Below are positions 1-13,567 of a DNA stretch of 64,000 nucleotides, in pieces. This stretch comes from Arabidopsis thaliana (lineage: Eukaryota > Streptophyta > Magnoliopsida > Brassicales > Brassicaceae), in NCBI RefSeq assembly GCF_000001735.4, contig NC_003070.9, forward strand, positions 7,440,001-7,504,000, written 5' to 3'. How positions within the stretch are numbered: position 1 is the first letter of the stretch; every line of letters begins with the position of its first letter. Under the pieces are notes generated by a model, which saw nothing but the letters and a program-made list of their open reading frames with translations, did not search any database and was not told the DNA's origin. The translations under genes and the position numbers were made by a program.

Positions 1-1892
1 TGCTGCAGAGTCGACGTTTCTGCCCCGTTGGATAGCTATACATTCGAAACTACATCAGGTCGCATCAAGCACATGACTTCTTTTCACGACTTTAGTCCTT
101 GCACCTACGCTTTTCTCGTTGAAGATGATAAGTTCAACTTCAGTTCTACAGAAGATCTTCTGAATCTGCGAAATGTCATGAGGTTCCCTGTGTTACTAGA
201 TTGGTCTGTTGGAAATCAGACATGCGAGCAAGTTGGAAGCACAAGCATATGCGGTGGGAACAGCACTTGTCTCGATTCTACTCCTAGAAACGGGTATATC
301 TGCAGATGCAATGAAGGCTTTGATGGGAATCCATACCTTTCAGCTGGTTGCCAAGGTTCTTCTTTCTTTCATGTTCTGAGTAGTAATATTTTTCCCATTA
401 CATATCTTGTTGAATCTTGCGTTCTTTTTCTTTGTGCCAGACGTCAATGAGTGTACTACTAGTAGTACTATCCATAGACATAACTGTTCGGATCCCAAAA
501 CCTGTAGAAACAAGGTTGGAGGCTTCTATTGTAAGTGTCAATCTGGTTACCGCTTAGATACCACCACTATGAGCTGCAAGCGTAAAGAGTTTGCATGGAC
601 TACAATTCTTCTTGGTAAGTTTCCCTCACTATTTCTCGACTTGATGTTTCCCAGATCAACTTATTATAATCATCTCTCTGAATCTACGATGTGTGTGATC
701 AGTAACCACCATCGGCTTCTTGGTCATTCTGCTTGGCGTTGCCTGTATACAACAGAGAATGAAGCACCTGAAGGACACCAAGCTCCGAGAACAATTCTTC
801 GAGCAAAATGGTGGCGGCATGTTGACACAACGACTCTCAGGAGCAGGGCCGTCAAATGTTGATGTCAAAATCTTTACTGAGGATGGCATGAAGAAAGCAA
901 CAAATGGTTATGCTGAGAGCAGGATCCTGGGTCAGGGTGGCCAAGGAACAGTGTACAAAGGGATATTGCCGGACAACTCCATAGTTGCTATAAAGAAAGC
1001 CCGACTTGGAGACAGTAGCCAAGTAGAGCAGTTCATCAATGAAGTGCTCGTGCTTTCACAAATCAACCATAGGAACGTAGTCAAGCTCTTGGGCTGCTGT
1101 CTAGAGACTGAAGTTCCCTTGTTGGTCTATGAGTTCATCACCAATGGCACCCTTTTCGATCACTTGCATGGTTCCATGATTGATTCTTCGCTTACATGGG
1201 AACACCGTCTGAAGATAGCAATAGAAGTCGCTGGAACTCTTGCATATCTTCACTCCTCTGCTTCTATTCCAATCATCCATCGGGATATCAAAACTGCAAA
1301 TATTCTTCTGGATGTAAACTTAACTGCAAAAGTAGCTGACTTTGGTGCTTCAAGGCTGATACCAATGGATAAAGAAGAGCTCGAAACTATGGTGCAAGGC
1401 ACTCTAGGTTACCTAGACCCAGAATATTACAACACAGGGTTGTTAAACGAAAAGAGCGATGTTTATAGTTTTGGGGTCGTCCTAATGGAACTGCTCTCAG
1501 GTCAAAAGGCATTGTGCTTTAAACGGCCACAGTCCTCAAAACATCTGGTGAGTTACTTTGCGACTGCCACAAAAGAGAATAGGTTGGATGAGATTATTGG
1601 CGGCGAAGTGATGAACGAGGATAATCTGAAGGAGATCCAGGAAGCTGCAAGAATTGCTGCAGAGTGTACAAGGCTAATGGGAGAGGAAAGGCCAAGGATG
1701 AAAGAAGTAGCTGCAAAGCTAGAAGCCTTGAGGGTCGAAAAAACCAAACATAAGTGGTCGGATCAGTACCCTGAGGAGAATGAACACTTGATTGGTGGTC
1801 ACATCTTGTCAGCACAAGGCGAAACCAGTAGCAGCATTGGCTATGACAGCATCAAGAATGTAGCAATATTGGACATTGAAACTGGCCGCTGA
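1..1892 (+). CDS. WAK1: Wall-associated kinase 1, 3' part (N-terminus outside window)
   Basis: Receptor-like Ser/Thr kinase that spans the plasma membrane and binds pectin/oligogalacturonides in the wall. Exons in the window: 1-355 (continuing from before the window), 441-614, 703-1892, all GT-AG. The visible 572 residues contain the end of the extracellular galacturonan-binding region, an EGF-like module (CGGNSTC), a calcium-binding EGF module opened by DVNEC on its own exon, a transmembrane helix (TIGFLVILLGVACI) at the start of the last exon, and a full kinase: glycine loop GQGGQGTV, lysine in VAIKKA, catalytic HRDIKTAN, DFG and LDPEY. The family member is about 735 residues, so roughly 160 N-terminal residues lie upstream. 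The C-terminus ILDIETGR matches WAK1 as I remember it. It is the first intact unit of a WAK-gag-FBA duplication block. Confidence 0.97.
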
Positions 1893-2244: not shown

Positions 2245-2952
2245 TCATCTCCTGTATCTCTTCATCGTCAATTCTGCTCCTTTAACCATATTGTAAGCTT
2301 CGTAAAGTGGCGGAGGAGGTTTCTTGAGCATGATTGTTATCCTCACAACCTCAAACTCTTTGTTCAACCCCATCAAAAACTCGTAACGCTGCTCCTTCTC
2401 TCTCGCTTCTTTAGCTAGTTTCGTACTCTCGCAATTGCAACCACCGCACTTACACTCAGGTACAGGAGCATACTCCGACAACTCCATCCAAACTTTACTC
2501 AGTTTCCCAAAATACTCCTCAACAGAATCACCACCTTGCCTCAACGTCGCGAGCCTCCGACGAAGCTGGTAGATCTTCAAATCGACGCAAGGAACGAATC
2601 TAAGTCTGAGATTTTCCCACGCTTGATGAGCAGTCTTCGCGTACATCACAGACTTTACAAGCTCTTCGCTCATCAAATTCATCAGCCAATACTTAACTAT
2701 TGTGTCGCATCGTTTCCATGGATGATAGAGCGGCGAGGAAGGTTCTGGCTGCGGGAGAGTACTGTCAATGAAACCGATTTTGTTCGTGAGTTCGAGAAAA
2801 GAGCGAAATCGAAATTTCCAGATGACGTAGTTGTCTTCGGCTTCGCTGAGTTTTTCGATAGAGAAATCGGAGGGTTGATTAATATCTGGAGGGAGATAAT
2901 ACGGTGAATCGGGGTCGGATAATGGAGATACGCTCTTGATAGTTTCCGCCAT
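2245..2952 (-). mobile_element. Ty1/copia-type gag-only ORF, copy 1 (looks whole)
   Basis: A 235-residue uninterrupted frame from the first ATG (MAETIKS). It has the plant copia gag signature: NYVIWKFRF near residues 43-51, GFIDSTLPQPEP, a central TAHQAWENL, then LKIYQLRRRLATLRQGGDSVEEYFGKL split over two adjacent motifs, and a Cys cluster ECKCGGCNCES. There is no protease, integrase or reverse transcriptase beside it, and no LTRs are visible. It ends in its own stop, with a WAK1-flank spacer downstream. Upstream (3086-3105) a GGGCTTAATGGGCC block is shared with the other copies. It is an old derivative of a Ty1/copia element, duplicated here with the WAK genes and kept as one open frame. Whether it acts as a host gene is inference. 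Confidence 0.85.
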
Positions 2953-3085
2953 TGTCGTCACTGAGCTCTGCTTCTAAAACTCTAGGGCTTGCCCTTTTTT
3001 ATCCCTTTCGATTTTGACTAACATTAAACAAATCATTTTCAAAATGAGAAAGAGAAAAAAAAAAAAAAAAAAAGATAAAGAGTTG

Positions 3086-3105
3086 GGCTTAATGGGCCTT
3101 GAGTT
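3086..3105 (-). promoter_or_regulatory. Site II-type GGCCCA motif upstream of gag copy 1
   Basis: The minus strand reads AAGGCCCATTAAGCCCAAC about 130 nt before the gag ATG. The same block precedes copy 2 (8541-8560) and, in altered form, copies 3 (10810-10828) and 4 (11866-11884). TGGGCC/GGCCCA site II elements are known in Arabidopsis promoters of growth-related housekeeping genes. The role here is inferred from conservation and position. Confidence 0.5.
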
Positions 3106-3142
3106 TCCCTCCGGAGCCCAACAAAGCCCCTAGGGAAGCTAG

Positions 3143-3420
3143 CGTCGATTGCAAGAAACGCATATGCTTCTTTCCAACGTTTTGATTTGTGGATACTAGA
3201 GAGGATGTCAATAAACATGATTGGTCCAAGCAAACAGTTGATCTTCCCTTCCCTTTGGTTGATATGAGTTCCCTGGCACCAACAAGGTTGGTGAAATCAT
3301 TTCCCCCAAAATGTATACCACCCATTCTTCAACTTTCCTTCTTCATAATGGACTCATACACGATATGTGCGTCTCTATCTCACCCGAACCTTGTTTTTCT
3401 TCAAGGACCTTAATGTGTAA
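3143..3420 (+). pseudogene. F-box-associated (FBA) gene fragment, copy 1
   Basis: A degraded 3' fragment of an F-box protein gene of the large Arabidopsis FBA family. Recognisable pieces in shifting frames are FDLWILE (around 3181-3200), a segment like SKQTVDLPFPLVDMSS, APTRLVKSF, and a C-terminal run resembling SYTICASLSHPN. It aligns with the longer copy at 8595-9290 but lacks the 5' two thirds and has an internal deletion between 3340 and 3350 where copy 2 carries about 90 extra bases. No intact frame. Confidence 0.65.
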
Positions 3421-4190
3421 GAGCTTGACAGACTCTGTTTTTTTCTTCTTTGAATCAATATATAAGCGTTGGCTTTTCAACATCAAGCAAACTAGTTTTT
3501 TATCTTACCATTGATGATTTGCATTTTCTGACATGTGTTATTTCTTTTTATTGTTGTTCATATTTTGAGTGTTTTGTTTGTTTTTGCTCAGAAGGTATTA
3601 TATGCACAAGATTTCATTGAACTGTATGCTGCAGATAATCATCGAGAAGCTCGTTTATCTATGAGGATTAAGCCATTGTGGAAGTTTTGGAAAACCTAAT
3701 CTTAACTATCATTTGTCTTAACTACCAATAGGTCTAATTCTAAAAGACAGTGGAAATAAAAAAGCAGGGAAGAGAAGGGTTAGGTGAAGGTGGTCTACAT
3801 AATTTGCCTGGAAATCAAGAAAAGTAAGAGAAGGATATTGGAGCGGACCATAGCACATGAAGATGAAACATTCTAATGGGGCTCCCATTTTAAAAGGGTC
3901 CCACAGAAATTTTATTGTAATTAAATATACATATATATATATATTGATTTTTAATAGGAGAAATAGTTAGTTTTATACATATTAATCTTAAATAATAGTG
4001 TGATCCAAAATATTTATAAATCTAACATACAATTAAATAAATAATTCAGAGTTTTGTTTAAATTGGTTTCTATTTACTCTATAGTTTTAAAGACAAAAGT
4101 ACTTTGTTTTCGTAATTTAAATGGCCCGAATTTCATTGGTCCGGCTCTGTAAAATAATATTTACTATTGCAGATTCCTGCAATTATTGGG
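3421..4190. other. Spacer between FBA fragment and WAK 5' remnant
   Basis: AT-rich DNA with a TATATATATATAT run near 3930. The first bases (CAAGGACCTTAATGT) continue the homology with 9316-9331. No coding signal seen. Confidence 0.55.
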
Positions 4191-4375
4191 AAAATGGGGA
4201 CTAGTCAACGGAAGCAAGTCAAGAGAACATATCAAGAATGGAGTGTGTTTTCTTAGCTTTAAGAAGCAGATGCTACGGAGAGATGAGAGAAAACTCAAAG
4301 AGAAACAAATTTAGTGAGACAAAGAGAGAAGGAGAAGATGAAGTTGCAAGAGGGTCTGATCTTGGTGGCATAATG
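4191..4375 (+). pseudogene. WAK promoter/signal-peptide remnant upstream of WAK2
   Basis: A leader region ending in ATGAAGTTGCAAGAGGGTC (4337 onward), which reads MKLQEGLILVA and then stops. This closely resembles the WAK signal-peptide start MKVQEGLFVVA of WAK2. The preceding 140 bases (AGTCAACGGAAGCAAGTCAAG onward) are repeated at 9345-9480 before the third WAK remnant. So a lost WAK once began here, about 660 bases before the WAK2 ATG. The rest of that gene is absent. Confidence 0.65.
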
Positions 4376-4996
4376 CTTTATGACTCAAAATGTCTAAATG
4401 TGGGGAAAAAAACAAGTCGTAATAAAAGCATCATAAGAAAACAGAGCATGTTGTGATCAGGATTCAGGAGTCTCAATTCCTATATCGTCATTTTAAAAGG
4501 CAATTTTCATATTTTGAGCGTGAAATTAACTGTTAAGAAAAAGAGTAAATTTGCCTTGTAATATCGAGAAAAGAAGAGAGGACCGAGACTGAAGTTGACT
4601 TAAGAGGGTCTTCATAATTGAAGATTCCTTGCAAGTTGCAACTGTCTTAATCTTTGAATAGTAAGAAAATAAGTGTCACTGTTAACAAAATTAAATCGGT
4701 TTCCCCACTAACGAAAAAAATATCAAGAATGACGAGAAGACCAAGACCTATAGTTGTCACTGTTTAAATACTATACAGGAATATGCAGCAAACGTCCTCT
4801 TCACGCCTCATGGGTTACATTGGTTGTGTAGTTGAATTTTCGTCTTCTTGCATTATATGACAAAATGGGAGCGGGCCTGCGAAAATGAGTGAAGAGAACA
4901 TTTCATATACAGTTGTTTCTAATAAGAAAAAGGAGATTAGCGAAAACTCAAAACAGGAACAAAGTTAAAAGAGTGAGAGAGAAAGAAAGAGAGAAG
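4376..4996 (+). promoter_or_regulatory. WAK2 upstream region
   Basis: About 620 bases between the WAK remnant and the WAK2 start. It contains AAATACTATACAGG near 4766-4780 as a weak TATA candidate and a purine-rich leader (GAGAGAGAAAGAAAGAGAGAAG) directly before the ATG. No gene seen. Confidence 0.4.
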
Positions 4997-7345
4997 ATGA
5001 AGGTACAGGAGGGTTTGTTCGTGGTGGCTGTTTTCTACCTTGCTTATACGCAGCTAGTCAAGGGGCAACCTCGCAAGGAGTGCCAAACTAGATGTGGCAA
5101 TGTCGCAGTTGAGTACCCTTTTGGTACTTCTCCAGGTTGTTACTATCCCGGAGATGAAAGTTTCAATCTTACTTGCAACGAGCAAGAGAAGCTCTTCTTT
5201 GGCAACATGCCAGTCATCAACATGTCTCTCAGCGGCCAGCTTCGTGTTCGGCTAGTTAGATCCAGAGTTTGCTACGATAGTCAAGGAAAACAGACTGACT
5301 ACATTGCCCAGCGGACCACCCTGGGTAATTTCACTCTCTCTGAACTTAACAGATTTACTGTAGTAGGTTGTAACAGTTACGCATTTCTCCGCACATCTGG
5401 AGTTGAAAAATACTCAACTGGATGCATATCAATATGTGATTCTGCCACAACGAAAAACGGATCATGTTCTGGTGAAGGTTGCTGCCAGATCCCTGTCCCT
5501 AGAGGATACTCTTTTGTCAGAGTAAAACCACATAGCTTTCACAACCATCCTACTGTGCATCTGTTTAATCCTTGCACCTACGCCTTTCTCGTTGAAGATG
5601 GTATGTTTGACTTCCATGCTTTGGAAGATCTCAACAATCTGCGAAATGTTACTACGTTCCCTGTAGTACTAGATTGGTCTATCGGAGACAAGACTTGCAA
5701 ACAAGTAGAATACAGGGGCGTGTGTGGTGGTAACAGCACATGTTTCGATTCTACTGGTGGAACCGGGTATAACTGCAAATGTTTAGAAGGTTTTGAGGGG
5801 AATCCATACCTTCCAAACGGTTGTCAAGGTACTTTAACTTGTTTTCTGTTTTATCACTTCTTTTAATCGTTTACTTCATACATGCTCTTTTTCCTTGGCC
5901 AGACATCAATGAATGTATTAGTAGTAGACATAACTGTTCGGAGCATAGTACCTGTGAAAACACGAAGGGGAGCTTCAACTGTAACTGCCCATCTGGTTAC
6001 CGCAAAGATTCCCTTAATAGCTGTACTCGTAAAGTCAGGCCTGAATACTTTAGATGGACTCAAATTTTTCTTGGTATGTTCCCCTCACTGGTTTCGGATA
6101 CTTTCCTTTTAAAAAACTAGCTCTAATTACCTAGGTGTGATGTGATCAGGAACCACCATCGGCTTCTCGGTTATCATGCTTGGGATTAGCTGTCTACAAC
6201 AGAAAATTAAGCACCGGAAGAACACAGAGCTCCGACAAAAATTCTTCGAGCAAAATGGTGGAGGCATGTTGATACAGCGAGTCTCGGGAGCAGGGCCATC
6301 AAATGTTGATGTCAAAATCTTCACTGAGAAAGGAATGAAGGAAGCAACTAATGGTTACCATGAGAGCAGAATCCTGGGTCAGGGAGGCCAAGGAACAGTG
6401 TACAAAGGGATATTGCCGGACAACTCCATAGTTGCTATAAAGAAAGCTCGGCTTGGAAACCGTAGCCAAGTAGAGCAGTTCATCAACGAAGTGCTAGTGC
6501 TTTCACAAATCAACCATAGGAACGTGGTCAAGGTCTTGGGGTGTTGTTTAGAGACAGAAGTCCCCTTGTTGGTCTATGAGTTCATTAACAGTGGTACCCT
6601 TTTCGATCACTTGCACGGTTCCTTGTATGATTCTTCACTTACATGGGAGCACCGTCTGAGGATAGCAACAGAAGTAGCAGGAAGTCTTGCATATCTTCAC
6701 TCTTCTGCTTCTATTCCAATCATCCACCGAGATATCAAGACTGCTAATATTCTCCTGGATAAAAACTTAACTGCAAAAGTAGCTGACTTTGGTGCATCAA
6801 GATTGATACCGATGGATAAAGAGCAGCTCACAACAATAGTGCAAGGCACTCTAGGTTACCTAGACCCAGAATATTACAACACAGGGTTGTTAAACGAAAA
6901 GAGCGATGTTTATAGTTTTGGGGTCGTCCTAATGGAACTGCTCTCAGGTCAAAAGGCATTGTGTTTCGAAAGACCACATTGCCCAAAAAATCTTGTGAGT
7001 TGTTTTGCTTCTGCCACAAAGAATAATAGGTTCCATGAAATTATTGATGGGCAAGTGATGAATGAGGATAACCAGAGAGAGATCCAGGAAGCTGCAAGAA
7101 TTGCTGCAGAGTGTACAAGGCTAATGGGAGAGGAAAGGCCAAGGATGAAAGAAGTAGCTGCAGAGTTAGAGGCCTTGAGAGTTAAAACAACTAAATATAA
7201 GTGGTCGGATCAGTATCGTGAGACAGGGGAGATTGAACACTTGCTCGGCGTTCAAATCTTGTCAGCACAAGGCGAAACCAGTAGCAGCATTGGCTATGAC
7301 AGCATCAGAAATGTAACAACATTGGACATTGAAGCTGGCCGTTGA
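4997..7345 (+). CDS. WAK2: Wall-associated kinase 2
   Basis: Complete 732-residue receptor kinase of the plasma membrane that binds wall pectin and signals in cell expansion and pectin-fragment responses. Exons: 4997-5828, 5903-6073, 6150-7345; the phases fit. ATG 4997 (MKVQEGLFVV) starts a signal peptide; the frame is open 36 codons further upstream, but that part is Lys/Arg-rich and not a signal sequence. Order: signal peptide (1-23), cysteine-rich GUB_WAK galacturonan-binding domain, EGF module (CGGNSTC), calcium-binding EGF exon (DINEC), transmembrane helix (TIGFSVIMLGISCL), kinase with GQGGQGTV, VAIKKA, HRDIKTAN, DFG and LDPEY. Exon layout is identical to WAK1. One 125-nt stretch in the kinase is base-identical to WAK1 (6839-6963). 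Confidence 0.97.
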
Positions 7346-7689
7346 TATTAATGCTCTGACAAAATCACATGTATATCTTTTGTTTGTAAAAAAAGAAAGT
7401 CATTTCCTTGTTGCTTCATCAATAATGCTTTGACAGATTTGTTTGTACATCATCAATAATCATGTTCATATTTTCCTTTACTTGGTATACTAACCAGTAA
7501 CCGATCTGGTTATTGGCAAATTTAAAACTCTTGTGTTAAATTTTAGTTCATAAAAATCTAATTCCATATGAGATTGATAATATACAGATATAGCTTCAAA
7601 CACATCTCAATAAGAAACACTAGAATCCCAAAAAAAAACATAGGCAAAGAAGAGAAAAGTTATGATCATAAACCTGCTTCCTAAATTCT
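7346..7689. other. WAK2 3'UTR and spacer to gag copy 2
   Basis: Homologous to the WAK1 flank: GTTGCTTCATCAATAATGC and the CTAACCAGTAACCGATCTGG motif recur. No gene seen. Confidence 0.65.
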
Positions 7690-8403
7690 TCATCTACTGT
7701 ACCACTTCATCATCGATTCTGCATCTTTGACCATAGCGAAAGCTTCGTGAAGTGACGGAGGAGGTTTCTGGAACATGATTTTTGTCGTCACAGCCTCGAA
7801 GCCTTGGTTCAACTTCAACCCCATCAAAAACTCGTAACGCTGCTCCTTCTCTCTCGCCTCTTCAGCTCGTTTAGTACACTCGCAATTGCAACCACCGCAT
7901 TTACACTCCGGTATAGGAGCATACTCCGACAACTCCATCCAAACTTTACTCAATTTCCCAAAATACTCCTCAACAGAGTCACCACCTTGCCTGAGCGTCG
8001 CGAGTCTCCGACGAAGCTGATAAATCTTCAAATCAACACAAGGAACGAATACACGTCTGAGATCTTCCCACATTTTATGAGCAGTCTCCGCGTACATAAC
8101 AGATTCTAGAAGCTTATCGGTCATCGAATTCATCAGCCAATACATAACCATTGCGTTGCATTGTTCCCATGGCTGATAGAGCGGAGAGAAAGGGTCTGGC
8201 TTCGGGAGAGTACCGTCGATAAACCCGAATTTTTTCGTGACTCGGAGGAAAGAGCGAAATCGAATTTTCCAGGCGACGTAGTTGTCTTCGTCTTTGCTGA
8301 GTTTTTGGATAGAGAAATCGGAGGGATGATGAATATCGGGAGGGAGATAATACGGTGAATCGGGGTCTGATGTTGGAGATACGCTCTTGATAGTTTCCGC
8401 CAT
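7690..8403 (-). mobile_element. Ty1/copia-type gag-only ORF, copy 2 (looks whole)
   Basis: A 237-residue uninterrupted frame starting MAETIKS, closely related to copy 1 along its full length. The gag signature is present: NYVAWKIRF, GFIDGTLPKPDP, TAHKMWEDL, a QLRRRLATLRQGGDS core and the CKCGGCNC cluster. No LTRs or pol domains are seen on either side. It occupies the same position relative to WAK2 as copy 1 does to WAK1, so it spread by segmental duplication and not by new retrotransposition. The upstream GGGCTTAATGGGCC block is kept. Confidence 0.85.
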
Positions 8404-8540
8404 TGTCGTCGCTGCTCTGAGAGTCTCTCTCTGCTTCCAAATCCTAGGGCTTGCTTTGTATCCCTTTCGATTTTGACTTTTTTAGTCTCAAATAAAGAAA
8501 TAATTTTCCAAAATAAGAAAAGTCGCAATTTTTTGTAAAC

Positions 8541-8560
8541 AGTTGGGCTTAATGGGCCTT
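8541..8560 (-). promoter_or_regulatory. Site II-type GGCCCA motif upstream of gag copy 2
   Basis: The minus strand reads AAGGCCCATTAAGCCCAACT, the same as before copy 1, at a similar distance (about 140 nt) from the ATG. This position is conserved while the flanking bases differ. Confidence 0.5.
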
Positions 8561-8594
8561 GTATTTCCCCTCCCTAGCCCAAAGTTTCAGGGAT

Positions 8595-9290
8595 TACCTT
8601 ACCCATTAAAGGACCCCGCGCATCATTGGGATATGATCTTGTTGGTCATTAATCAAAGCGTTGAACCTGGTGTCTTCACATGACCTGTATCTTGGTTTTG
8701 GAGGACAAGAAACATCAAAAACACGTAATCAGTTTACCAAAGCTCCTTATTACCGTGTAACCAAGGGACTTTGCATCTATGGTTCCATCTATTATGGTGC
8801 TTGGGCCCCTAGACTAAGAATGGATCCGGTGAATGGTGATTGTGTGTTTTCATGTTAGATATGAGAGGCTAAGTTTTATCAAAGTGCCTAGGGATGTTTT
8901 GGTTCGGGAGTGTGAATCAATATTGATAGAATACAAAGGGAAGTTAGCTTCCATTGCTAGAAACCCTTTAAGCTTCTCTAGTTTTGATTTGTGGATACTA
9001 GAGAATGTCAAGAAACATGTTGGTCCAAGCAAACATTTGAGCTTCCTTTCCCTTTGGTCAATATGACTTCTCCTGGCACCAACAAGGCTGGTGAAATCAT
9101 TTTTGCCCCAAAATCTCTCCCACCCATTCTTCAACCCTTCTTCATTTTCTAGTACAATGTAGGAAAAAAGACATCAGAAGAGTTAGGCTCCATGGAATTG
9201 CAGACGAGAAAGAGTTTTGTCGCCGATGTGGACTCAATGACTCATACACGATATCTGCGTCTCTATCTCACCCGAACATGTTGAAACTAT
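8595..9290 (+). pseudogene. F-box-associated (FBA) pseudogene, copy 2
   Basis: A longer copy of the fragment at 3143-3420. Translated pieces across frames follow the FBA domain order: SHDLYLGFGGQETS, APYYRVTKGLCIYGSIYYG, WAPRLRMDP, RLSFIKVPRDVL, ESILIEYKGKLASI, SSFDLWILENV, and a C-terminal RRCGLND/SLSHPN. The reading frame shifts near 8835-8850 and again after 9060, and there is no F-box start. So this is a non-coding relic of an F-box protein that would have been a substrate adaptor of an SCF ubiquitin ligase. Confidence 0.75.
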
Positions 9291-9330
9291 TGCCTCTTTG
9301 TAATGTGTTTTTCTTTAAGGACCTTAATGT

Positions 9331-9690
9331 AGGAGAAAGTGGGGACAAGTCAACGGAACCAAGTCAAGAGAACATCTCAAGAATGGAGTGTGTTTTCTTA
9401 TATTTAAGAAGCAGATGCTTTGGAGAGATGAGAGAAACCAATTTAGAGAGAAAAAGAGAAGGAGAATATGAAGTTTGCGATTGAGGGTACAGGAAAGGCC
9501 AAGGATGAACGAAGTAGCTGCAGAGTTAGAGACCTTGAAAGTCAAAACAATTAAAACATAATCAGTATCCTGAGACAAGGGAGATTGAACACTTGCTCGG
9601 TGTTCGAATATTATCAACACAGGGAGATACCAGTAGCCGTAGTTATGACAGCATCAAGAATATTGGACATCGGAGCTCTGACAAATTCAC
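9331..9690 (+). pseudogene. Third WAK gene, deletion-fused remnant
   Basis: The first part (9345-9480) matches the WAK leader at 4200-4345, ending in an ATGAAGTTT start. After about 20 bases it joins directly to the 3' end of a WAK kinase: AGGAAAGGCCAAGGATGAACG (9493) matches RPRMKEVAAELEALRV of WAK2, followed by EIEHLLGV and a SAQGETSSS-like tail (9615-9650). The extracellular domain, transmembrane helix and nearly all of the kinase are missing. The 3'UTR motifs still follow (TTTGTTTGTAAAAC). This is one large internal deletion of a former WAK, plus small frame damage near the C-terminus. Confidence 0.8.
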
Positions 9691-9963
9691 ACATGTCTTT
9701 TGTTTGTAAAACATGAATCCTACTTCTTTGTAATTGCCTCATCAAATTATGTATTGAGAGAATATTTTGTGCATCATCTATAGTTGTTATACTAACCAGT
9801 AGTCAAATAACCAAATTTAGAGCTCTTATGCAAAATTTCAGTTGACGAATCTAATTCCATATGACATTGATAATGTACCAATATGGATTCAAAAAACACG
9901 AAAACACTTCAAAAAGAAACACTATAAAAGCATAAAAAGTTAAAATCACGGACCTGCAAATTC

Positions 9964-10695
9964 CTAAATTCTTCCTCCCATTTTCCACTTCATCATCGCT
10001 TCTGAATACACAACCATCTCATAAGCTTGGTAAACAGACGGAGGAATCTTCTTGTGCATGACTTTCATTTTCACATAGTCAAACTCTTTGTTCAAACCCA
10101 TCAGAAACGCGTAACGCTGCTCTTTCTCTCTCGCCTCTGTAGCTCGTTTCTCACTCTCGCAATCGCAACCACCGCACTTACACTCCTGCACAGGATCATA
10201 CGCCTTCAACTCCAGCCAAGCCTTACTCAATTTCCCAAAATACTCCGCCACAGAGTCACCACCTTGCCTCAGCGTCGCGAGTCTCTGACGAAGCTCGTAG
10301 ATCTTAAAATCAATACATGGAACGAATATACGTCTGAGATCTTCCCATGCTTTATGCACAGTCTCTGCTTGCAACACATGGTTTTGAAGCGTATCGGTCA
10401 CGGTATTACTCAGCCAATGCAAAACAATCGCGTTGCATTGTTTCCATGGCTCATAGTATGGAGAGGAAGGGTCTGGTTTTGGGAGAGTACCGTCGATGAA
10501 CCCGGTTTTGTTCGTGAATTGAAGGAGATCGAAAAATCGCAGTTTCCAAATGGCGTAGTTGTCTTTAGCTTCGCTGAGTTTATCGATTGCGGTATTGGTG
10601 TGCATGTTGAATTGGTGAAGATAATCTGGATTGAAATAATAGGGTGATTTGATATCGAGTGTGGGAGATAATAAGCTGATGATAGTTTCCGCCAT
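9964..10695 (-). mobile_element. Ty1/copia-type gag-only ORF, copy 3 (looks whole)
   Basis: A 243-residue uninterrupted frame from ATG 10695 (MAETIIS). More diverged than copies 1 and 2, and slightly longer at the N-terminus (HQFNMHTNTAIDKL). It keeps NYAIWKLRF, GFIDGTLPKPDP, the LRQRLATLRQGGDSV core and CKCGGCDC. It follows the third WAK remnant in the same opposing orientation as the other WAK-gag pairs. No LTR or pol seen. Its frame is intact even though the WAK beside it is destroyed. Confidence 0.83.
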
Positions 10696-10704
10696 CGTCG
10701 TCAC

Positions 10705-11018
10705 TGCTCTGACTAACTCTGAGCTCTGCTTCTCTAATTCTAGGGCTTTGCTTCGTATTTATCCACTTCGATTTTTCACTTTTTTAAGTCTATAATAATT
10801 TTAAATCAGATGGGCTTCAATGGGCCTTAGATTTTCCATTCAAAACCCAAATATTGAGCGTCAAGATTTTTACATTACAAGCATGACGTCACACAAATGA
10901 TTCGTGTATGTTTATTTTTTGTGTGTCTCTTTGCTTACTTTAAATAAATGGCTCATTGCTTAAAATATTAGAATCTAAAGAAAGCATAAAAAGAAAATTT
11001 ATGATCATCAACATGCGC
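10705..11018. other. Spacer between gag copies 3 and 4
   Basis: Contains the copy 3 leader (AATTCTAGGGCTTTGC) and a diverged GGCCCATTGAAGCCC motif at 10810-10828 on the minus strand. No gene seen. Confidence 0.5.
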
Positions 11019-11707: not shown

Positions 11708-13567
11708 TGTCGGCTTGTCGCTGCTCTCAAGTTTTGTTTCTAGGGTTTACCTTATAAGAGAGTAAATTTATAGATAAATTAGTAATATACTATTTACTTT
11801 TTACCTGAGGAAAAAAGGTCACAAGTCACAACGTTGTCGGTTAGTAAAAGGCTCAAACAAAGTTGAGTTTTAATGGGCCTTTGAGTTTCCACTTTTGAGC
11901 CCAACCTTTCAAGGACCATGAGATCATTCATCGTCGATTGTTAGTAGTTTTTTAGGCAGTCACACACACCTCTTATTTTTCACCTGAAGTAGAAGCTATG
12001 CTATATTCTAATAGTAATAGAAGCCATCTCTAATCCCTACCATATGATTTTTGTCTGTAAAAAATAGCAAAGTGATATTAATATTGATACCGTATATATT
12101 AATCTATTTTTAACTTTTTATGATTAGTAACCATCAAAATAATATATATTTTACTGTCGGGATAAGAGGTATATTAAAATGGCACACTAAAAATAAGACT
12201 AAAAAATAAAATAAACCAAACTAAAAATAAGACTTAAAATGGCACATATCAATATCATCACAATGACTATATTAAAAAAAAGAAGAGTAATTTTAATTTC
12301 TATTATTGACTTAATTAATTAAGACTTGAAACTATAGATACATGAACAAAAAGGAAAGAGATGCGAAAACAGTGAAAAGAAAGTAAGACGAAGCTGACAA
12401 AAATTAGGTTATCAAGTGGTCGAGAGTTGAGACTCTAGTAGAGAGAATGAAAAATTATGTCACCTTATTAGAAAATTTCCAAGAAAAATAAAACAAATAG
12501 AAGAAACAAACGGAAGAAAATAACACATTACAGAAGCAAAAGAAGAAAAGTAAAATGGAAAAGTCGAGTTGACTTTTTTTTTTAATTTAAAAATTGGAAT
12601 TTTATACTATTTTGAATTTGTGACAGAAGTTACAAAGAAAACTAGATGCTAAATTGAGTTGACTTGATAGTGATATGCATTAATATAACTCTCATGAAAG
12701 GATAATTTCGTTAAGGTAAGGGTCCATTTCTGTTACTAGTCTAACAACTTAACCTTTCTGATTAGACTAAGAGTATGTGGGATTTAGTTTTGTCTGTAAT
12801 ACTTTTCTTCTAACTTTTTTCCTAAATTATTTTCCTGGACCAATAATCTGACGTTTTTCTAAATATATTCCATTTGGTTAAAAATTAAACTACGCGTTTT
12901 GAAAAAAAAGGACTAATTTTGTTATTTGGTACCCCAGGCCAATCTTTATTTTTTCAAAGGTTAAATTATAGACTAATGTTCCAGTTCAAGTTTGTACTAA
13001 ATTCTTAGACGGGTTAGTGTTGACATGTTCCTCTTCACCGCTGAGATTCACTAAAGTTCCATACACTATCAATACTCTCTAGCTAATATGTACGAGAAAC
13101 ACTGTTTGTTTCATGTAAACTTCAAATAGTGTTTGTCGAAAATATATAGTGGCTGATTTCTTAAAACTGGACCCAGAAGAAGAATTAGTATTGGAGTGCA
13201 TGCTGCATGTATTTTTTTTATTTAAATGGGGCATTCAGAGAATTATTATTGTTAACTTCTTTTTATTAAGAACTCTCCTTTATTAATTGGGACAAAGCAA
13301 ACTTGCACATGAAAAAAATCAGAAAGAAACAAGACGTAATTAAAATTTTACAAACATAGATATATGACTATTGATTGCATGCATGAACCATTGATTGATC
13401 AACACACACAAGTTTCAAATTTATTACAATAAAACGCAAACAATACTTTGAAAATGATGAGAAAGCTTTCTCTGCTTGGATTCTCTCTTTCATCTTTTGT
13501 TTCTCTTATTACAATCACCAGTACTGGTTTCGTCTTGTCTTTGTCTTCTTGTGTACATCGTGTTCTC
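11708..13567. other. AT-rich intergenic region
   Basis: About 1.9 kb of AT-rich DNA. A short direct repeat of TTAAAATGGCACA with AAACTAAAAATAAGACT lies at 12174-12250. The right end (13440-13567) is probably the last exon of the EXT3 3'UTR on the minus strand. No coding signal seen. Confidence 0.55.

Follow-up and report, generated by a model that had tools for sequence, protein, structure and literature searches.

Arc and PEG10 are animal host genes derived from gag; they belong to the Ty3 lineage and have an origin independent of the gag family described here, which lies in the wall-associated kinase (WAK) cluster of Arabidopsis thaliana. Plants have domesticated gag multiple times as well, according to the available text of a report citing Wang and Han (PMC9784723). 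The co-opted plant gags it describes, including sunflower HadGAG, are host gag genes without long terminal repeats (LTRs), as are those of the WAK cluster; there, however, gag is fused to host domains and spread over 4-10 exons, whereas each WAK-cluster gag stands alone in one open frame. Closer still, a study of exapted transposable element (TE) genes of A. thaliana counts At1g21260, in its available sections, among the novel exapted genes of Ty1/copia origin, following Hoen and Bureau 2015 (PMC5715367). We analysed a 64,000-nt window (chr1:7440001-7504000) and its surroundings and found five gag copies, gag0 to gag4, four of them open and one frameshifted. As WAK1 is At1g21250 and WAK2 At1g21270 (PMC11684076), locus order makes gag1, which lies between the two, At1g21260.

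An initial annotation of the window had proposed a family of three gag genes (gag1 to gag3), possibly domesticated by the host, and had regarded plant cases as little described. The family in fact counts five, with gag0 outside the window and gag4 frameshifted, and plant cases are in print, that of gag1 among them. Domestication here is therefore not new in kind, and our results are an extension rather than a surprise. In its available text, the study listing gag1 has the same Ty1/copia derivation and an arsenic phenotype, and holds nothing on gag0, gag2, gag3 or gag4, on co-duplication with WAK genes, on the promoter or on the capsid-only extent of the protein (PMC5715367); no paper naming AT1G21290 or AT1G21220 was found in the literature searched. 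The proposal of host domestication itself is well supported by the anatomy of the copies, their single clade, co-duplication with WAK genes, shared promoter motifs, rare and in-frame insertions and deletions (indels), and partial purifying selection, with between a third and two fifths of codons under constraint. Domesticated copia gag genes are the best reading of the family, and we consider it a probable one.

Anatomy of the gag copies

The five members of the family are the following, with coordinates here and below being window positions unless a chromosome is given:

2245..2952, minus strand: gag1 (copy 1), open frame of 235 codons, between WAK1 and WAK2
7690..8403, minus strand: gag2 (copy 2), which we take to be AT1G21280, open frame of 237 codons
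9964..10695, minus strand: gag3 (copy 3), open frame of 243 codons
11031..11707, minus strand: gag4, open for 185 codons, frameshifted where 19 nt are missing at the cysteine cluster
chr1 7428247-7428930, outside the window: gag0, open frame of 227 codons, downstream of WAK4

As first described, gag1, gag2 and gag3 each run without interruption from a shared ATG, all three start with MAETI, and all three contain the gag core. Among the four window copies, Pfam Retrotran_gag_3 (PF14244) passed its cut-off in every one and Retrotran_gag_2 (PF14223) in gag1 only. The C-x-C-GG-C-x-C cluster pointed out in the initial annotation is likewise present in gag1 to gag3 (as CKCGGC[ND]CE), but it is no special mark of the family: 16 of 21 related stop-free gags carry a C-x-C...C-x-C cluster and the open gag0 is without most of it, so the cluster is inherited and dispensable, and ordinary for copia gags.

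No CCHC zinc knuckle was found in any of the four open copies, as compared to 15 of the 21 related gags within the frame read. The ends of the open copies fall where related gags run on into a linker, followed by the zinc knuckle where one was found. A profile of 18 family and related gags gave a weak match to the first part of the Drosophila Copia capsid (E 0.0036 and 0.0082; PDB 8s41, 8vvw), which, unlike the family's product, is the capsid of a working element. Structure prediction from three window sequences returned an all-helical model at a mean pLDDT of 41, a value that carries no usable confidence.

Compared with gag2, gag4 shows three further gaps (3, 6 and 3 nt), all in frame, which suggests that this copy broke late. 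Antisense to gag3 runs a 206-codon open frame (10027-10647), probably a shadow of the coding frame.

Co-duplication with WAK genes and absence of mobility features

A whole-genome protein search returned 130 matches, the top five of which lie within 25 kb on one strand (an extra row being the gag4 tail), while the next-best match outside the family is only 33% identical. In a maximum-likelihood tree of 26 rows (the five family members and 21 other copia gags, four of 25 others having been dropped for stops), the five family gags made up one side of a branch with support of 100/100 and a stem of 0.76 changes per column. Viral contigs, searched as well, yielded no relative.

Three of the copies stand tail to tail with a WAK gene or its remains, and a decayed F-box-associated (FBA_3) sequence lies among them:

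729..1892, plus strand: WAK1 kinase exon, tail to tail with gag1, one duplicated unit
4997..7345, plus strand: WAK2, tail to tail with gag2, one duplicated unit
9400..9664, plus strand: third-WAK relic in two pieces, tail to tail with gag3
about 8833-9063: FBA_3 relic, with gag2 on one side and the third-WAK relic on the other

A single blastn alignment spans the units WAK1-gag1 and WAK2-gag2 (3,817 columns, 78% identity), and duplication therefore took place at the DNA level; the unit of the relic and gag3 aligns with both across the WAK 3' end. Between the WAK1-gag1 and WAK2-gag2 units, identity is 0.81 in intergenic sequence and 0.87 in the gag coding sequence. Synonymous divergence (dS, NG86) is 0.19 between gag1 and gag2, 0.35-0.39 between gag3 and either of them, and 0.61-0.65 between gag0 and the others. 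Because the copies were duplicated as DNA together with the WAKs and share their flanks, the internal evolution of the family most likely took place after the loss of mobility.

The destroyed neighbours reported earlier were recovered, the WAK relic in its two pieces and the FBA_3 relic with E 4.9e-16 (one of three pieces scanned matched). DNA similarity links 3132-3346 to 8937-9145, in the area of the FBA_3 relic. The WAK genes of the cluster span chr1 7424653-7447342, and a stray WAK kinase fragment lies behind WAK3 (chr1 7436839-7437339). Between WAK1 and WAK2, dS is 0.49 in the first exon (computed with trimmed ends), 0.32 in the kinase exon and 0.19 in the adjoining gag; with the first exon far above the other two, these values hint at gene conversion or unequal exchange.

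Each of the five ATGs has two or three site II hexamers upstream (TGGGCY or complement), which start at -196 to -101. A telo box (AAACCCTA) is located at -57 in gag0 and at -41 in gag4, and gag1 to gag3 carry a telo-like box with the third A replaced by G. Within the window, the hexamers form these boxes:

3082..3120, minus strand: gag1 promoter box, three site II hexamers
8542..8581, minus strand: gag2 promoter box, three site II hexamers
10811..10826, minus strand: gag3 promoter box, two site II hexamers
11874..11903, minus strand: gag4 promoter box, two site II hexamers

Of 230-bp windows drawn at random from the region, 2.2% hold at least two site II hexamers; since the copies are homologous, the enrichment counts only once. 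Searched against the genome, the stretch upstream of gag2 matched itself and gag1 only, and thus no copia LTR resembling it was found. The motifs shared by the five copies are of the host promoter type.

The lack of LTR and pol noted at the outset was borne out. Three copia reverse transcriptase (RT) queries gave no match in 40 kb around the copies, and no LTR-like same-strand repeats were detected between the 1.5-kb flanks of four of the five; the sole flank repeat, at gag2, corresponds by its coordinates to the 3' ends of WAK2 and the WAK relic. By these searches, the family is without the LTRs and pol of a mobile LTR retrotransposon. Among the best 65 of the 130 gag matches, scored for a listed RT within 8 kb downstream, 36 had one and 29 did not, the latter including the five of the WAK cluster. 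Twelve of the remaining 24 loci were fetched, with an RT match near six of them and none near the other six. Gag loci L043, L050, L051, L052 and L053 have frames without internal stops and no RT match in ~7 kb downstream.

Constraint and competing explanations

For the four open copies, the whole-gene ratio of nonsynonymous to synonymous divergence (dN/dS, omega) is 0.63 (likelihood-ratio test 11.3, P=0.0008). The site model M1a, which requires no prior choice of residue range, placed 40% of codons at 0.055, with a gain of 49.4 in twice the log-likelihood over M0; for gag1 to gag3 alone, M1a outperformed neutrality with P=6e-5 and 32% of codons near zero. Purifying selection after mobility loss, the property of an exapted TE gene, is thus found both across the four copies and in a codon class of gag1 to gag3. 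Constraint concentrates in residues 116-200, with an omega of 0.35 in the four copies (P=5.7e-5) and 0.29 in gag1 to gag3 (P=2.5e-4; rest of these genes 1.07), P values that are optimistic because the range was picked after viewing the alignment. Per-codon posteriors from the three sequences singled out no individual sites. Between gag1 and gag2, dS is higher in the core (0.28) than in the rest (0.15), so the conservation of the core is not explained by gene conversion.

Indels point in the same direction. A comparison of gag1 with gag2 gave one coding indel (6 nt) in 705 nt, whereas 538 nt of flank held 16 (P=1.5e-5); per nt, the coding rate is lower by a factor of about twenty, although the flank is apparently A+T-rich, which may raise its indel rate. 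All seven coding indel events counted by hand in the four-copy alignment are multiples of three, versus 7 of 16 in the flanks. In only 0.3% of 4,000 neutral simulations, with branch lengths set by hand at 0.10 per site, did gag1 and gag2 both stay stop-free since their split. The open part of gag4 (up to 166 codons) is no neutral yardstick, as its pairwise dN/dS of 0.47-0.65 is no higher than that among the other copies. Overall, the constraint on the family is real but partial.

Ty1 p22 and Fv1 are precedents for capsid-type restriction of particle assembly. A domesticated gag might act likewise, its truncated capsid poisoning the assembly of copia particles, as would suit the end of all four open copies before the zinc knuckle and the fast change of the N-terminal part (dN/dS 0.77-0.92, indistinguishable from 1). 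Yet identity to present copia gags is only about a third, and M2a brought no significant gain over M1a in the four copies that would indicate positive selection (P=0.15), leaving a role as restriction factor unlikely.

Mutant lines are available for part of the family. In the table columns of PMC5715367 as they read, two T-DNA lines of At1g21260 germinated on arsenic at 26% and 38%, versus 64% for the wild type, and the available text states that the novel exapted TE genes are conserved in Brassicaceae. The deletion line wak-delta-2, which is without the WAK cluster, is described in the available text of PMC11684076 as having no obvious growth phenotype on soil. Its printed guide sequences map to chr1 7424291-7424313 and to window positions 7226-7248; by these positions, the line should miss gag0 and gag1 and retain gag2 to gag4.

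A number of observations weigh against domestication. For gag1 to gag3 alone, a whole-gene dN/dS of 0.74 does not fall significantly below 1 (P=0.09); the selection initially proposed from the open frames is seen in the codon class and the four-copy ratio, but not in these three copies taken as whole genes. The four-copy signal leans on gag0, whose terminal branch (0.45, P=0.001) is the sole one to depart from 1, the values for gag1, gag2 and gag3 being 0.68, 0.70 and 0.92. The frame of gag4 is lost. Nor is an open gag frame without RT nearby rare in the genome, given that six of the 12 other loci tested had no RT match and five of these six are free of internal stops; what distinguishes the WAK-cluster family is that several diverged copies are still open. 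The screen that included gag1 scored a phenotype of one kind or another in 46 of 50 exapted genes, which makes its specificity doubtful (PMC5715367, available text). Finally, seedling RNA sequencing of wak-delta-2 named WAK1, WAK2 and miR850 only as changed, in the text available (PMC11684076); on that account, gag1 is either weakly expressed in such seedlings or outside the gene set, and neither gag0 nor gag1 is essential under the growth conditions of that line. There, gag2 and gag3 may compensate.

Part of this would be expected of a stranded gag relic whose copies were neutral passengers of the WAK duplications and stayed open by chance: M1a assigns about two thirds of codons to its neutral class, the whole-gene ratio of gag1 to gag3 is compatible with neutrality, one copy is broken, and the loss of two others (an extent taken from the guide positions) is tolerated. 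Set against it are the constrained codon class, the rarity and uniformly in-frame nature of coding indels, and the chance of 0.003, under hand-set branch lengths, that gag1 and gag2 would both be stop-free, and we judge passengers unlikely. A non-autonomous gag-only element that still retrotransposes, akin to the TR-GAG elements known in plants (PMC9784723, available text), is highly improbable, with terminal or flanking direct repeats not found within 1.5 kb, the copies confined to one 25-kb cluster and without a close match elsewhere, and their flanks and promoter motifs held in common.

Proposed mechanism and meaning

Under domestication as copia gag genes, a Ty1/copia gag would have been stranded beside an ancestral WAK, without pol or LTRs, would have acquired a host promoter with site II motifs and a telo-like box, and would have been retained as a host gene. 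Tandem duplication of the WAK-gag unit as DNA would then have yielded the five copies, of which all but gag4 remain open. The predicted product is a capsid-only protein, a helical core without zinc knuckle or protease. Judging from this anatomy, the most likely mechanism is that the protein associates with itself as capsids do, by way of its constrained middle (about residues 116-200), although the molecular step is a guess; it might provide a scaffold in seedlings exposed to stress, or interfere as a capsid fragment. More tentatively, a tandem family of capsid-only copia gags with ribosome-gene-like promoters, copied together with receptor kinases, could be a self-assembling capsid module or a brake on copia, and as such the equivalent in plants of Arc or Ty1 p22, a prospect we hold to be rather unlikely.

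The presumed loss of two gag genes besides the WAKs should be weighed when phenotypes of wak-delta-2 are read. With this deletion line and the published T-DNA lines in existence, gag function is testable at once. Gag domestication in plants is thinly studied, and the WAK cluster offers a set of closely related open copies together with one that is broken.

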